Below are positions 35,067-43,072 of a stretch of DNA of 49,042 nt, one piece after another. Below the pieces are notes generated by a model. That model searched no databases and had not been told where the DNA came from. It saw nothing but the letters and a program-made list of their open reading frames with translations. The DNA lies in NCBI RefSeq assembly GCF_913773995.1, contig NZ_CAJYES010000075.1, positions 1 through 49,042 on the forward strand, read 5' to 3'. Position numbers and translations under genes: made by a program. Numbering within the stretch: position 1 is the stretch's first letter; each line of letters starts with the position of its first letter. The DNA comes from an uncultured Pseudacidovorax sp. (GTDB taxonomy: Bacteria > Pseudomonadota > Gammaproteobacteria > Burkholderiales > Burkholderiaceae_C).

Positions 35067-36044
35067 TCAGTTGGTCTGCGCGGCGAGGCCAGCGGCCCGC
35101 ACGGCCGGCGCGAAGGCGCTCTGCTCGGCCTGGATGCGCTTGCGGACGGCATCGGGCGCGGCGTAGTCGGCCTCGTGGCCCAGACGCACGAAGGCCTCGC
35201 GCGTGCCGGGGTTGGCGAGTACCTTGTTCAGCTCGGCGGACAGCTTGTCGACCACGGCCCGCGGCGTCTTCGCCGGCGCGTAGAGCGCGAGCCACACCTC
35301 GAACTCGGTGCCCGGAAAGCCGGCCTCGGCCAGGGTCGGCACGTCCGGCAGAAAGGGCGAGCGCTTCTCGGATGCGACGGCCAGCGGGCGCAGCTTGCCG
35401 TCCTGGATCTGCGCGTTGAGCGGCGCCAGGTCGGCCATCACCATCACGGTCCGCCCGGTCACCAGATCGGCGATGGCGGGCGTGAAGCCGTTGTAGGGCA
35501 CGTGGATCATCTTGGCGCCGGCGCGCTGGATCAGCATCTCGGTGCCGATGTGCGCCATCGAGCCGATGCCGTTGCTCGCATAGGCCAGCGCGCCGTCGCG
35601 CGCCTTCGGGTCGGCGAGCAGGTCCTTCGCGCTCTTGTAGGGCTGCGTGGCCGACACCGCGAGGAAGTAGGGCAGGCGCGACACCTGCCCCACCGGCGCG
35701 AAGTCGTTGAGCGGCACGAAGGGCAGCTTGGCCTGCGTGAGCGGCAGCAGCGTCATGGTGGAGCCGCCCGTCAGCAGCAGCGTGTAGCCGTCCGGCGCCG
35801 CGCGCGCCACGGCCTCGGCCGCGATCACGGTGTTGCCGCCGGGCTTGGACTCGACGACGAAGTTCTGGCCCATCGCTGTCCCCAGCGACTGGGCCACGAG
35901 GCGGGCAGCGGCATCCACGCCGCCCCCGGGGGCGTAGGGAATGAGGATGCGCACGGGCTTGGACGGATAGGCCTCCTGGGCCAGGCCGGCCCCCGCGACC
36001 ACGGACAGCGCGACCGCGAGGACGTAACGAAGTAGCTTCACCAT
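35067..36044 (-). CDS. Tripartite tricarboxylate transporter substrate-binding protein (Bug/TctC family)
   Basis: The product is 325 aa. A Sec signal peptide (MVKLLRYVLAVALSVVAGAG, cleavage near residue 22) precedes the Bug domain: PVRILIPYAPGGGVDAAARLV, VVESKPGGNTVIAAE, MIHVPYNGFTPAIADLVTG and LPDVPTLAEAGFPGTEFEVW. It delivers a carboxylated ligand to a TctAB permease. First gene of a minus-strand operon with a ThDP enzyme and a MarR regulator. The tctBA pair lies convergent 2.4 kb away and is a plausible partner. A palindrome at 36093-36106 lies about 50 bp upstream of the ATG. Confidence 0.93.
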   Translation of the reverse strand: MVKLLRYVLAVALSVVAGAGLAQEAYPSKPVRILIPYAPGGGVDAAARLVAQSLGTAMGQNFVVESKPGGNTVIAAEAVARAAPDGYTLLLTGGSTMTLLPLTQAKLPFVPLNDFAPVGQVSRLPYFLAVSATQPYKSAKDLLADPKARDGALAYASNGIGSMAHIGTEMLIQRAGAKMIHVPYNGFTPAIADLVTGRTVMVMADLAPLNAQIQDGKLRPLAVASEKRSPFLPDVPTLAEAGFPGTEFEVWLALYAPAKTPRAVVDKLSAELNKVLANPGTREAFVRLGHEADYAAPDAVRKRIQAEQSAFAPAVRAAGLAAQTN

Positions 36045-36181: not shown

Positions 36182-36750
36182 GTGCGCGGTGGCCGCTGTG
36201 CGACGGACAGGCGCCTGTTCCCCTTGACGCAGCGGGGGGCCGCCATCGCGTTCCGGATCGTCCCCCTTCACGAGCTTGACGTGGTGCAGCGCAAGCTGGT
36301 GCGTCTGCCGTACAGCGTCCACGTCGCGACAGCCTCACCCGACCCGGTGCTCGGCGATGGCGCCGGCTTTCGGCTCATTACGCACGACACCTCGACCGGC
36401 CAGTTCCCGGACATCGCGTGGCTGAAGAGCCGCTTTCCCAATGCCCGGCCGCTGCTGGCGTCCAACAACGCAACGTGCAAGCTCGCATAAGCAGCCAGGG
36501 CATCGGCATCGCCGTGCTGCCCCAGGTGATGGGCAAGCAGCTGGGCGGCCTGCGCCGGCTGAGCCTGCCGGAAGAGCCGCCCGCCCGGGAGATCTGGATG
36601 GGTTACCGCGACCTGCGGCGGCTGAACCGTCTGCGGACATTCATTGCGATGGTGAATGAGCATTTGGCGGGGCTCCAGGGGGTGAGCTGTGTTTGCCTGC
36701 TGCGTAGTTGGTGCCAGCGTCACAGGGCGAAGATGGCAGTAAGGCGCTGA
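36182..36750 (+). pseudogene. LysR-type regulator remnant (5'-truncated, frameshifted)
   Basis: Two overlapping frames together spell the substrate-binding half of a LysR regulator: first RIVPLHELDVVQRKLVRLPY and FPDIAWLKSRFPNARPLLAS up to about 36475, then in the other frame VQARISSQGIGIAVLPQVMG and EIWMGYRDLRRLNRLRTFIA. Restoring one G after 36475 would join them as NNATVQARISS. The DNA-binding helix-turn-helix and about half the effector domain are missing upstream. The gene is thus both truncated and frameshifted. It marks the left edge of the low-GC accessory segment. Confidence 0.8.
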
Positions 36751-36801
36751 TTTGAGCGCTCTGGGACCGCGGTATGTGGAGCGGTAACGCCTCATCAATT
36801 C

Positions 36802-39800
36802 CTACATGACGACGCAGTCCTTGGCCGACCATTGAGAAAACGCCCGATGAATATGTGCGTAAGTCTGAAAGACACGCTGTCTCTCCTCGGTGCGTAGCAA
36901 TTTAGGCCCGTCCATCTTTTTGAGCCAATCACGCTCGCCCCAATTACACCAAACTAGAACCTGGCGGGTTTCATTTAGGTAATGGCGAAGCAGGTCTGCC
37001 CGAATATAGAACAACTGGTGCTTGTTGCCAAAATAGCCCTCACCTGCTCGCCGATAGAGTGTGGCGGGCCGTCCACTTGAATCGAAGAAGTCGATTCCAC
37101 GGTCTCGACAAGAGATACCAAGGCGCTGGATTAGACTCGGCGCGGGAATGTCGAATCCTGAGACAGTGTTATGCGGGGAGTGATAGGACTCCCATCTGAA
37201 CCCGATGGAGGGTAGCTCAATTTTGACACCTGGAATATGGCGGGTGACGGGAATTTTGAATTCAAGAACAGAACCCTCTTGGTCGCCAGTTGCTGCATCT
37301 GGCAATGAAATGCGCTTAATGGTGAGCGACTGCTGTTTTCCGACGCTGAAGTCCTGCTCATAGTTTTCGAACGCCCATCTCAGTTGCCGGCGGTATCGAT
37401 CATTGCGGTTTAGAAGAGACTGCGCAAAGTTGTGACGGTGACCTGGTTCGCCAGCGAACAAGTAATACTCATCGGCTCCATCTGGGATCTTGTGATTTCC
37501 AGGGTAATCAATCGACATGAACTTCGAGCGAAGTGTGTCTACATCCTTCTTGGCAACGAAAACGCCTCGCAGGAAAGCAAACAGTTCACGGTCATGAGCA
37601 GCATCAGTCCCTTGGACAAATCCTTCAACGAGCACCCAATCGCCTTGGTGTCCGTTGATTTCCGGGACCACCAGGAGGGACTGCCAACTTGGGGTGTAGC
37701 CGCCTGCAACCCAGTCCTCAGTGCTCGCAGCAGGTGACCCGAATAGGTCCGGCAAAGGCGGTGTCCAGTCGGGCGGCGCTTTGGGAAAAGTGGGATCTGC
37801 CCCACAGTCGGCAGGCCGGACGTCCTGGCGCCAATCCGGTAGCTTTCGGTGCGCATTGCGTTCTCCCCACATCTCAAAGTATGCGATCCAAGAGTACTTT
37901 TTCCCGTAGCGGTCGACCTTGTTTTCGTCGCGGGCATTCCAGGAGGTTTGGCCGATTTCGGAATCTAAGCGTTTGAATCGCTCGTCTCGATATCCTAGGT
38001 CGAATATGCGGCGCTCGATCTTTGCTCGTACTTGTACGTACTCAGGTTTCGTCTCGTCATAGTTCGCCCTATTGGGTATTAGAGAGCCGATCGTGTAGTT
38101 GCCGAAATCCATCTGGATGGCGTGGCCGATGGCATCCTGGATCGACGCGTCAGGCTTCCCGTCGCTAGCGAACCGCGACAGAGTGTTCGGGAATGGCCGA
38201 CTTAGGTGGCGGGTAGCCGTCTTCGGCAACTTTACACACGCGGCTCGGTGGGCAACTTCAATGATGCCAAGCGCGTAGTCCCGCATAAGGGCGTGGTGCG
38301 TTGCATAGCGCGCTCGCGGAGCGAACATTCGCCGATAAAGCTTCTGCGCCAAGTCTCCAAGCTGCGGTCGAAAAGATGACGCATTCTTTGAATCGATTAA
38401 AGAGAGGGTCGTACCGTAAGCGGCTGCAAGCACTCGCTCTGGCAGGTATGGGTCGTTGAAGTCTAGGGATTTCACAGCGTGGGAGAACAATACGTCCGGA
38501 TATTGCTCTCCGATTAGCACGAGTGCCTTGGTCGCCAAGTCGCGGTCGGCGCGAACAACCGTAGTTAGGACCAAAGAAAACAGCACAACAAGTTCGGCGG
38601 CTGTGGCCCGCGTCATTGTCACGGCATCCAGCTTCTCCGCCCACGTCAGCAGCCGATGAATCGTCGGCGAGGCATATCTACGTCGCAAGTATTCTGACCA
38701 GCGCAGGTCGCGGTCCGCCATGGGAAAGCGCGACAGAAACTTGTACAGTCGCTCGGCATGATAGGGATGATCGGGCTTTGTCGCGACCGCGGCCAACGCG
38801 TCTACGACGCGCTCCCAGGCCCGCGAATCGGCGCTCAAGTAATGGTTGATGACCAACCGCGTGCCCTCGGTGAATGCGGTCGGATTTCTCCAGAACAGTC
38901 CCTCAATGAACGGCTCGAAATACGCGTCGAGGTTTTGTGTTTCCCTTGGCAGTAAGAAAAGAAGCTCGCATTGCCTGGGAGGGAGCTTGGTCCTTACGCG
39001 CTCTGGGAATTCAGTGATCAGGGCTTGCGCCCACCCAGGCTCTGCGTATTGGCCGAAATTTGGATCAGTCAGCCGGAAGACCCTCGCGAGAGGGGAGGTG
39101 GCTGCAAGACTGCTTTTGATGGCCGCGGGGGTGGACGTATCCAGGTATGCCTTCAGCAGGTGCCTAGCGATCAAATGATCGCTGAACCGTTGATAAGGCA
39201 TCCGATACACCAATCGAGACTTGTACTGTCCGGACCGAGTTGAGTACCAGATGACGTCCTCCTCGATGAGCCCATTTGTTCGCATCGCTTCCAGAAGCTG
39301 GCGCCGTTGAACAGGGCGTAACGCAGGTGCGCTTGCCCCAATGATTCGGTCAGCCTCTGACGGGAGGACATAACCGCGGAATTTCGCTGCCATACAAGGT
39401 GCGAAGCCGGAAACCCGTTTGTCGGCAAGCCGGTCGTCTCCCTTCAGCAAGATCCAACATCCTTTATCTTGCAGCCCGAAGGCTCGCTCGATCGGCTGCG
39501 CAACGCGATTGACGAACGACTCCAACACGAACGTCATTCCCCGCTGTCCGGAGGCAATCCCCGCAAACCCTTTCGCAAGCTTCTTGCCCGAAAGGCTTTG
39601 TAGCGATTGGCAAATGAGCTTCAGCGTAAGCGGGCGAGAGAACTCGCGATCCAGCAGCGGAACCTCAGGGAGCGGTAGTTGGTAATACTGAAAGAAGGCT
39701 GCCTGTGCATCGAACTCCTGGTCGTCGAAGCCAGAGTGCCGAAGGCGGTGAAATTTCTCCAGGTCGGTCTTCTCAATGGCCATTGCCTCAAACGGCGTCC

Positions 39801-40686
39801 GACACGTCACGACCAACCCGACGTTGGGATGGTCGGCGACAAGTAATAGCAGTGTGCGGATCGCTTGCCGCCACTCGCGCCTTCGTCCCTCATTTACTCC
39901 ATCGACGATGAAGACAGTCCGACCCTTTGCTCCTCGACCAGCGTCCTCCAGCTCGGCAAACCTTTCATTGATCGATGCTGGTGCGCCTAGACGTGCGCAT
40001 AAATCTGCAAGTACGTGACCCTCGAAGTTCTTTGCTAGCACTAAGACTGTTGGAGACCCGTTAGCAAGCCGTTCGCTGGTGACGTCGCACAAAAAGTGCG
40101 TTTTGCCAGTGCCCCACTCACCACGAATTAGGAGGCTGGGGTCGAAAAGCAGCTTGAACGAGGCGCTTTTGGCGTATTCTGTCTCGTCACGAATGACGCT
40201 CAGGCAGCGGCTGATAGCATTCAAGTTGGTGCGCGCAGCGTTGCGCGCGGCAGAAGAACTTTCGTCCGGCGCAAGTTTGGCCTCCTCGGCCCGCCAATGG
40301 GCGACGTCCTCCAGCAATCTGACTTCGATCTGGGTGAGGCGTGCAACCCACTCCTCGCCAGCGTTGGCATCACGCGAACGCAGACGGCTCATCATTGCTG
40401 GGAGTGAAATGCTGGCTGTCTCAAAAATTTGGTCGATGTCCGCTCGTCGCTGGCTATGACTCTTCGCATGGCTCCATGCTTCGCCGAAATCATCGAGGAC
40501 CGCCTGGAAGCGCCGTCTCGCAGGATCGCCACATGAGATGTTGTCGATGGCGGTGGATAACGCGGCGATCCGAAGATTAGGCGCTCGTGGATCTACGCCG
40601 GGCGTATATCTTTGCCCTGCTAGGCATATTTGTTCTCTGCAAAGACTGGTCAGGGCCGCTGAGAGGGATGGCTGATCAAAAGGCAT
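36802..40686 (-). CDS. Large STAND/NACHT-like P-loop NTPase, putative anti-phage defense protein
   Basis: The product is 1294 aa. Residues 1-185 are helical with no domain I recognise. Walker A is RGEWGTGKTHFLCDV (GEWGTGKT at 189-196), Walker B is FIVDGVNEG at 259-267 with Asp262, and VVTCRTPFE at 292-300 supplies a sensor-1-like Arg296. After the NTPase core and a winged-helix-like segment (about 330-520) follow several hundred residues of helical sequence that could be a repeat sensor, and a C-terminal region with WVAGGYTPSWQSLLVVPEI and DWVLVEGFVQG. This architecture suits the STAND class that includes Avs and bacterial NACHT antiviral proteins, but no N-terminal nuclease, TIR or protease effector is visible. 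The ATG has AAAGGA just upstream. Base composition (about half G+C where I counted) and codon use differ sharply from both sides, indicating horizontal acquisition. No partner gene of normal size is adjacent. Confidence 0.8.
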   Translation of the reverse strand: MPFDQPSLSAALTSLCREQICLAGQRYTPGVDPRAPNLRIAALSTAIDNISCGDPARRRFQAVLDDFGEAWSHAKSHSQRRADIDQIFETASISLPAMMSRLRSRDANAGEEWVARLTQIEVRLLEDVAHWRAEEAKLAPDESSSAARNAARTNLNAISRCLSVIRDETEYAKSASFKLLFDPSLLIRGEWGTGKTHFLCDVTSERLANGSPTVLVLAKNFEGHVLADLCARLGAPASINERFAELEDAGRGAKGRTVFIVDGVNEGRRREWRQAIRTLLLLVADHPNVGLVVTCRTPFEAMAIEKTDLEKFHRLRHSGFDDQEFDAQAAFFQYYQLPLPEVPLLDREFSRPLTLKLICQSLQSLSGKKLAKGFAGIASGQRGMTFVLESFVNRVAQPIERAFGLQDKGCWILLKGDDRLADKRVSGFAPCMAAKFRGYVLPSEADRIIGASAPALRPVQRRQLLEAMRTNGLIEEDVIWYSTRSGQYKSRLVYRMPYQRFSDHLIARHLLKAYLDTSTPAAIKSSLAATSPLARVFRLTDPNFGQYAEPGWAQALITEFPERVRTKLPPRQCELLFLLPRETQNLDAYFEPFIEGLFWRNPTAFTEGTRLVINHYLSADSRAWERVVDALAAVATKPDHPYHAERLYKFLSRFPMADRDLRWSEYLRRRYASPTIHRLLTWAEKLDAVTMTRATAAELVVLFSLVLTTVVRADRDLATKALVLIGEQYPDVLFSHAVKSLDFNDPYLPERVLAAAYGTTLSLIDSKNASSFRPQLGDLAQKLYRRMFAPRARYATHHALMRDYALGIIEVAHRAACVKLPKTATRHLSRPFPNTLSRFASDGKPDASIQDAIGHAIQMDFGNYTIGSLIPNRANYDETKPEYVQVRAKIERRIFDLGYRDERFKRLDSEIGQTSWNARDENKVDRYGKKYSWIAYFEMWGERNAHRKLPDWRQDVRPADCGADPTFPKAPPDWTPPLPDLFGSPAASTEDWVAGGYTPSWQSLLVVPEINGHQGDWVLVEGFVQGTDAAHDRELFAFLRGVFVAKKDVDTLRSKFMSIDYPGNHKIPDGADEYYLFAGEPGHRHNFAQSLLNRNDRYRRQLRWAFENYEQDFSVGKQQSLTIKRISLPDAATGDQEGSVLEFKIPVTRHIPGVKIELPSIGFRWESYHSPHNTVSGFDIPAPSLIQRLGISCRDRGIDFFDSSGRPATLYRRAGEGYFGNKHQLFYIRADLLRHYLNETRQVLVWCNWGERDWLKKMDGPKLLRTEERQRVFQTYAHIHRAFSQWSAKDCVVM

Positions 40687-40734
40687 TTTTGTCCTTTACC
40701 AGTAGGAGTGCCTAGCTGTCCCTGCGGGACGGCT

Positions 40735-40872
40735 TTACTTGCGCTTCTTGGATCGTCGAACGAACGCGTGTAGTTCGCAGGAACAGCAACTACGACTTGT
40801 ATCGTCACAACGGGCTGGACCACGCAGCGTATCCACCAACGTCACGCTATTTGTTCGCCCTTGGTCTGTCAT
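40735..40872 (-). CDS. Possible 45-aa Cys-rich small ORF upstream of the STAND gene
   Basis: An ATG (40872-40870) opens a 45-codon frame ending TAA at 40735-40737, 48 bp before the STAND ATG and on the same strand. The peptide contains CDDTSRSCCSCELHAFVRRS and ends SKKRK, so four Cys sit close together followed by a basic tail. No Shine-Dalgarno is evident and the length could arise by chance, so it is offered only as a candidate. The rest of 40687-40987 contains nothing else I can identify apart from a short GTCCC/GGGAC stem at about 40715-40731. Confidence 0.25.
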   Translation of the reverse strand: MTDQGRTNSVTLVDTLRGPARCDDTSRSCCSCELHAFVRRSKKRK

Positions 40873-40987
40873 GGCCCAGCGATCCCGATTGTCTGAACAA
40901 GCCGCCTAAGCGTCCGCTCAACCGTATGGTTCACCCAGCGGCGGACGCTCGCCCCACATCATCCACCCCGCGCCTAGAATCGCCCCC

Positions 40988-43072
<2,085 letters not shown>

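Follow-up and report, generated by a model that had tools for sequence, protein, structure and literature searches.

What does a 1294-residue STAND NTPase do when it carries no recognisable effector? The window, by which we mean the whole 49,042-nucleotide stretch of Pseudacidovorax DNA that was analysed, holds an open reading frame (ORF) at 36802-40686 that a preliminary description had put forward as a candidate undescribed anti-phage system standing alone in a low-GC patch. The 1294-residue ORF is present, on the minus strand, which that description did not give, with its ATG at 40686-40684. The patch is there too: measured in 2-kb windows, GC content falls to 55-58% across the gene, whereas most of the window has about 66-74%. 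The ORF is more than a chance frame, since relatives occur at 22 genome loci with 58-66% identity (best segment) and dN/dS is 0.20-0.31. We use "headless" for Avs2-type proteins without the N-terminal nuclease head. The gene has the following parts.

36802..40686, minus strand: coding sequence of the headless Avs2-type STAND protein (ORF, with PADLOC and PDB sequence matches)
40692..40698, minus strand: in-frame stop TAA (40698-40696) overlapping a Shine-Dalgarno sequence AAAGGA (40697-40692), read from the sequence
40138..40686, minus strand: helical linker, residues 1-183, with RYTPG at 26-30 (motif search; structure model without strands)
40099..40122, minus strand: Walker A, GEWGTGKT, residues 189-196 (alignment of headless proteins)
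39886..39912, minus strand: Walker B region, FIVDGVNEG, residues 259-267 (same alignment)
39787..39807, minus strand: arginine motif, TCRTPFE with R296, residues 294-300 (same alignment)
36805..38889, minus strand: C-terminal region, residues 600-1294, with a predicted fold similar to terminase-bound Avs3

The NTPase motifs named in the preliminary description could all be located, the Arg sensor as TCRTPF (R296) at residues 294-299, and they are conserved among 16 headless proteins. Seven of the eight Walker A positions are invariant, and E190 is found in 15 of the 16; in the Walker B region, D262 occurs in 14 (E in the other two) and E266 in all; R296 is kept in 16 of 16.

Which kind of STAND protein is this? 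Six PADLOC Avs2 models match the ORF, the best being PDLC02164 (E=1e-162, residues 3-870 to model positions 166-1000 of 1504), and neither Avs3 nor Avs4 models appear among the eight PADLOC families matched at E up to 10. The sole PDB sequence match is again an Avs2, 9o4e (E=8e-57, residues 172-829 to 325-948). The likeness to Avs2 (PDLC02161-02166, NF041813, 9o4e) extends over the NTPase and adjoining regions, residues 3-870, and includes the single-gene layout and the STAND NTPase motifs (Walker A, Walker B, arginine); past about residue 940 the C-terminal region lies outside the PADLOC matches. With the NCBIfam Avs2 equivalog model NF041813 the protein scores 456.9 bits, below the cut-off of 1000, so annotation by that model would miss it. 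That 9o4e is not among the matches listed by the fold searches says nothing either way; for residues 1-640, Foldseek gave NLRC4 as the best match and Avs4 as the eighth. Pfam finds NACHT and AAA below threshold only, and the NACHT score of 16.6 bits is under the gathering score of 26.7, whereas a bNACHT protein would be expected to match. The clade 14 bNACHT proteins (bNACHT02, bNACHT12) do resemble the ORF as STAND-type defence proteins whose effector domain is described as not readily discernible, and they are a precedent for effector-less STAND defence, but they end in a short C-terminal SNaCT domain (PMC12169576), whereas the ORF has a long Avs-type C terminus. Judged by its sequence, the sensor belongs with Avs2 and hence represents no undescribed subtype. 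What survives of the original proposal is the Avs/STAND-type defence candidate that stands by itself in acquired DNA and has no recognisable effector; the novelty of subtype does not, since the profile search assigned the sensor to an existing one. Headless Avs2 is a variant of Avs2, and the absence of an effector across a whole lineage is the unusual part. We did not find an effector-less Avs2 in the open-licence literature (titles and abstract openings); an earlier description may exist.

Descriptions of Avs proteins give them three parts, a sensor, an NTPase and a fused effector. In Avs2 the effector is a PD-(D/E)xK head some 165 residues long, and the ORF has no such head. In six headed Avs2 proteins (L047, L048, L066, L113, L114 and L049 from the window's own genome), the nuclease motif DxG(V/I)(E/D)...QAK(Y/W/F) is found at residue 45-50, and Walker A follows at 330-367. 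In the four of these six where the pattern matches, an RYTP motif lies at 182-193, with a spacing of 155-174 residues from there to Walker A; the headed group L023-L042 has a spacing of 148. The headless proteins have RYTP at 26-52 and Walker A 163-166 residues further on, a spacing to be compared with 148-174 in these headed proteins. BLASTP of a distant headless protein, L160, against headed Avs2 aligned its residue 11 with residue 172 of L113 and with residue 176 of L047. The motif spacing and this alignment place the start of the headless proteins just behind the head.

The preliminary description was correct that no known effector is visible in residues 1-185, and it raised the possibility of a new one there. 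We rejected a new effector domain in this part: the PADLOC profile, the motif spacing, the structure model and BLASTP identify a helical linker common with Avs2. Residues 1-183 are all-helical in the model. Only 13 of the 183 positions, mostly around the RYTP loop, are invariant across 18 headless proteins; five of these are polar, and no catalytic set is evident. Because whole-protein MAFFT set the headless N terminus against the nuclease head, the linker assignment is drawn from the PADLOC profile, motif spacing and BLASTP. When the linker alone was compared with headed N termini, hhalign gave P 0.006 over 20 columns at RYTP with one headed set and P 0.18 with the second set; ratios of linker conservation are confounded by unequal divergence. 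A mis-called start or a frameshifted head was rejected as well. The TAA upstream of the ATG means that the frame gives no longer product, and tblastn with ten heads detected no head remnant in the upstream DNA (up to 3 kb) of 20 headless genes, where the best E was 0.23, or at the L160 locus (best E 0.68).

Could the protein be an effector that its sequence does not reveal, with the linker or the C-terminal part catalytic or membrane-active? The beta-rich C-terminal third, residues 961-1294, has 24 positions invariant in the 18 headless proteins, several of them polar, which speaks for such an activity. However, the linker is helical and its few invariant residues cluster near RYTP, and the C-terminal region is common with headed Avs2 (L023-L042) and is therefore not a replacement effector. 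We regard this explanation as improbable. As a separate observation, the nuclease head of an Avs2-type protein in another genome (L050 886-5250, G419) is replaced by a DUF4062 domain (Pfam 7e-6), and this head matches (E 0.003) a separate DUF4062-like gene at L004, which lies upstream of the headless gene there at a distance of about 4 kb.

When 84,980 species genomes were scanned with a pattern-based method, 42 loci were returned. Among the 22 closest loci (L001-L022; the 58-66% group), 15 encode intact proteins of 1294-1323 aa from the first start codon with the same N terminus, three are truncated at contig ends (L006, L013, L016) and four have interrupted frames (L007, L011, L019, L021; L011 is also cut by a contig end). 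Going by record titles, the hosts belong to the Alpha-, Beta- and Gammaproteobacteria, Desulfobulbaceae/Desulfobacteraceae and Acidobacteria; MAGs are numerous among them. The other 20 loci (L023-L042) have 30-37% identity. Eighteen of them were measured: 15 proteins reach 1341-1375 aa through an N-terminal extension, and three are shorter. This headed group, with L111 and L131, is alike to the protein end (residues 192-1281 at 30-37% identity for L023-L042) and differs from headless proteins by the extension of about 150-180 residues before RYTP, in which a GVEFH...WQCKW-type nuclease is seen by eye, though not listed by the motif search. L131 (686-6123) and L111 (811-6162) are plasmid loci, from Vibrio and Synechococcus, with a radical SAM gene, a DUF6375 gene and the headed Avs2-like gene in one common order; the first two are possibly an undescribed Avs accessory pair.

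Among 60 related genomes, the only match besides the own genome is in G035, of the same family; its coordinates are those of the L018 genome, Inhella crocodyli (order Burkholderiales). Further afield, nine genomes in a phylum sample of 398 match the headless alignment. One, G752, which is of the same phylum and outside the class, encodes L160, a deep headless protein of 1294 aa with 32-35% identity to 17 other headless proteins, nearly end to end; seven are headed by eye (G468, G480, G508, G522, G601, G722, G808), and in G683, the ninth, the stretch ends short of the N terminus. A 42-kb IMG/VR contig carries an intact 1292-aa headless copy near RepB-type and DUF3987 genes. Directly behind that copy (L133 8128-9738) are genes for a 240-aa protein without a Pfam match and for a trypsin-like protein (26.0 bits, under the 27.6 cut-off). 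On a Paraburkholderia plasmid (L112 4567-8155), an IS66 element directly precedes a headless Avs2 C-terminal fragment (residues 910-1294, 75% identity). A phage origin of the gene was rejected: no PHROGs family matched, and a search of the phage collection turned up a single record (22% identity).

We then considered how the headless state arose and whether it is kept. Two trees were built, the first with 17 headless and 18 headed proteins and the second with 18 and 13. Headless rows were the 15 intact proteins of the 22 relatives, P0001 and L133, with L160 added in tree 2; the headed rows L028, L036 and L041 were omitted from both, and L050, L049_own, L040, L025 and L023 also from tree 2. In each, the headless proteins form one side of a branch, with support of 100/99 and 99/97, respectively, and the nearest headed group is L026, L035, L042, L111 and L131. 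The simplest reading is a single loss of the head, on trees that are both unrooted and carry long-branch warnings. The dN/dS range given above (NG86 method) is that of the 12 closest headless pairs; for pairs with P0001, synonymous sites are at or close to saturation. At the level of sequence, the headless state is the common trait of one lineage that selection maintains. A nonfunctional Avs2 decaying after head loss is very improbable. The four interrupted frames among 22 relatives and the plasmid fragment directly behind IS66 would fit decay; against it are the 15 intact copies with the same N terminus, the low dN/dS, the single headless group, one member of which has 32% identity, and the gene's own ribosome-binding site.

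The surroundings point to defence. That the gene stands alone was borne out by its flanks, as follows.

36681..40952, no strand: inserted patch with this gene only, without DNA match to the congeners examined
40982..41090, plus strand: thiC TPP riboswitch (Rfam RF00059), which borders the insert on the 5′ side
41207..43072, plus strand: thiC, flanking gene (ThiC_Rad_SAM match)
35067..36044, minus strand: TctC-family receptor gene, flank on the other side (profile match)

The riboswitch and thiC are divergent to the gene on its 5′ side, and the TctC receptor gene lies on the 3′ side together with a segment at 36.2-36.7 kb that is common to congeners and by eye is a putative LysR-type remnant. 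The DNA match that runs from thiC breaks off at 40953-40978 in all 14 congeners. The tctC side is also matched in the same stretch in four of these (G011, G010, G008, G001), and among the four only G008 has the 36.2-36.7 kb segment in the window's order. Between the flanks, G011 has Septu PtuA/PtuB, G001 has type I restriction-modification with DarT/DarG, and T6SS VgrG genes are present in G008 and G010, the former also having a Tle1-like protein. A contig of G006 that covers the thiC side only has type I restriction-modification with PrrC, and G007 has other genes at the site. These proteins were chosen by eye, and eight of the 14 congeners were compared by DNA matches only. The stretch from the thiC riboswitch to tctC (window 36681-40952; L117-L121) is a variable site in the genus.

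Around the relatives, the 128 neighbours within 4.4 kb, the nearest of 237 ORFs, matched 96 PADLOC families at 1e-20, and among 25 of these families are type I and IIG restriction models (at most three proteins each) and ZorD. By comparison, 134 control proteins, out of 203 ORFs from contig C2 of 20 of the same genomes, matched 21 families, none of them restriction-modification, with AbiEii and helicase models included; the ORFs of this test were chosen mechanically. On one side of the deep headless gene (L193 8505-12389) is a type I HsdR gene, and on the other an array of 17 repeats with a 66-nt period, next to Cas9. The congeneric site, the neighbours against controls and the surroundings of this deep member support the defence setting for which the preliminary description had proposed a check. 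An ORF for 158 aa (L193 12396-12872), starting 7 bases behind the deep headless gene, has no PADLOC match; the repeat array and Cas9 come after it.

Does a neighbour supply the missing effector? Besides the gene itself, no ORF of at least 100 aa recurs in more than four of 23 loci. The most widely shared neighbours are of restriction type, and a 1047-aa HsdR-like ORF is present in four of the 23. We also looked for headed Avs2 elsewhere in the same genomes with PDLC02164. The search covered 22 genomes of relatives, many of them incomplete MAGs, under 23 handles of which one was a duplicate. This model found the headless gene alone, with the exceptions of a 371-aa match in G446 (E 8e-4) and, on a different contig of G442, a C-terminal fragment of 169 aa. 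The window's own genome (G000) does encode a headed Avs2, on contig C246 (L110 3173-7387, minus strand), with a DGGVEAYY...QAKY head and 522 bits to PDLC02164. This copy would suit a regulatory or dominant-negative role, in which mixed oligomers tune or block nuclease-bearing Avs2. Such a role has little chance of being correct, given that the own headed copy is distant, at about 25-27% identity to the headless protein, and that none of the 22 relatives' genomes, many of them incomplete MAGs, shows a headed copy by this model.

The gene encodes an Avs2-class NTPase with conserved motifs and a helical linker, without a nuclease head or a constant partner gene, at a site where congeners keep defence genes. 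Avs1-4 are described as STAND sensors of phage terminase or portal with nuclease effectors as output (PMC12931631, PMC12724215). The predicted fold of residues 600-1294 matches terminase-bound Avs3 (PDB 8dgc), a protein with 13% identity to the ORF; the gene product probably detects a phage packaging protein, with an output that does not come from a fused nuclease head. We propose, with a probability of roughly 45%, that it is an effector-less Avs2-type sensor in phage defence whose output comes from an effector acting in trans. During infection, the C-terminal region would bind the phage large terminase, as its modelled fold suggests; ATP-bound protomers would assemble by analogy with other Avs proteins; the assembled N-terminal linker would recruit or activate an effector encoded elsewhere in the cell, and this would stop the infection. 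We propose a trans effector because none is fused or encoded next door.

Alternatively, the protein may bind the large terminase in an oligomer and in this way block the packaging of DNA itself, without any effector. This accords with the modelled terminase-sensor-like fold, the conserved NTPase motifs, the missing partner gene and the absence of headed Avs2 by PDLC02164 in the relatives' genomes. A stoichiometric blocker, however, would have no obvious need for a conserved NTPase switch, and the mode of action given for the known Avs1-4 is by nuclease effectors and altruistic death (PMC12931631). We consider sequestration rather unlikely, second to recruitment of a trans effector, the most likely of the explanations. 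There is an even chance that this is a terminase-sensor lineage without a fused nuclease that either jams the packaging motor or switches on an unlinked effector.

A sensor and NTPase lineage maintained without an effector raises the question of what its output is. Headless Avs2 offers a natural test of whether binding of terminase is protective by itself or whether NLR-like sensors signal to separate effectors. If our reading is true, headless Avs2 would be an immune receptor of bacteria whose signal acts in trans, or one that neutralises the phage without killing.
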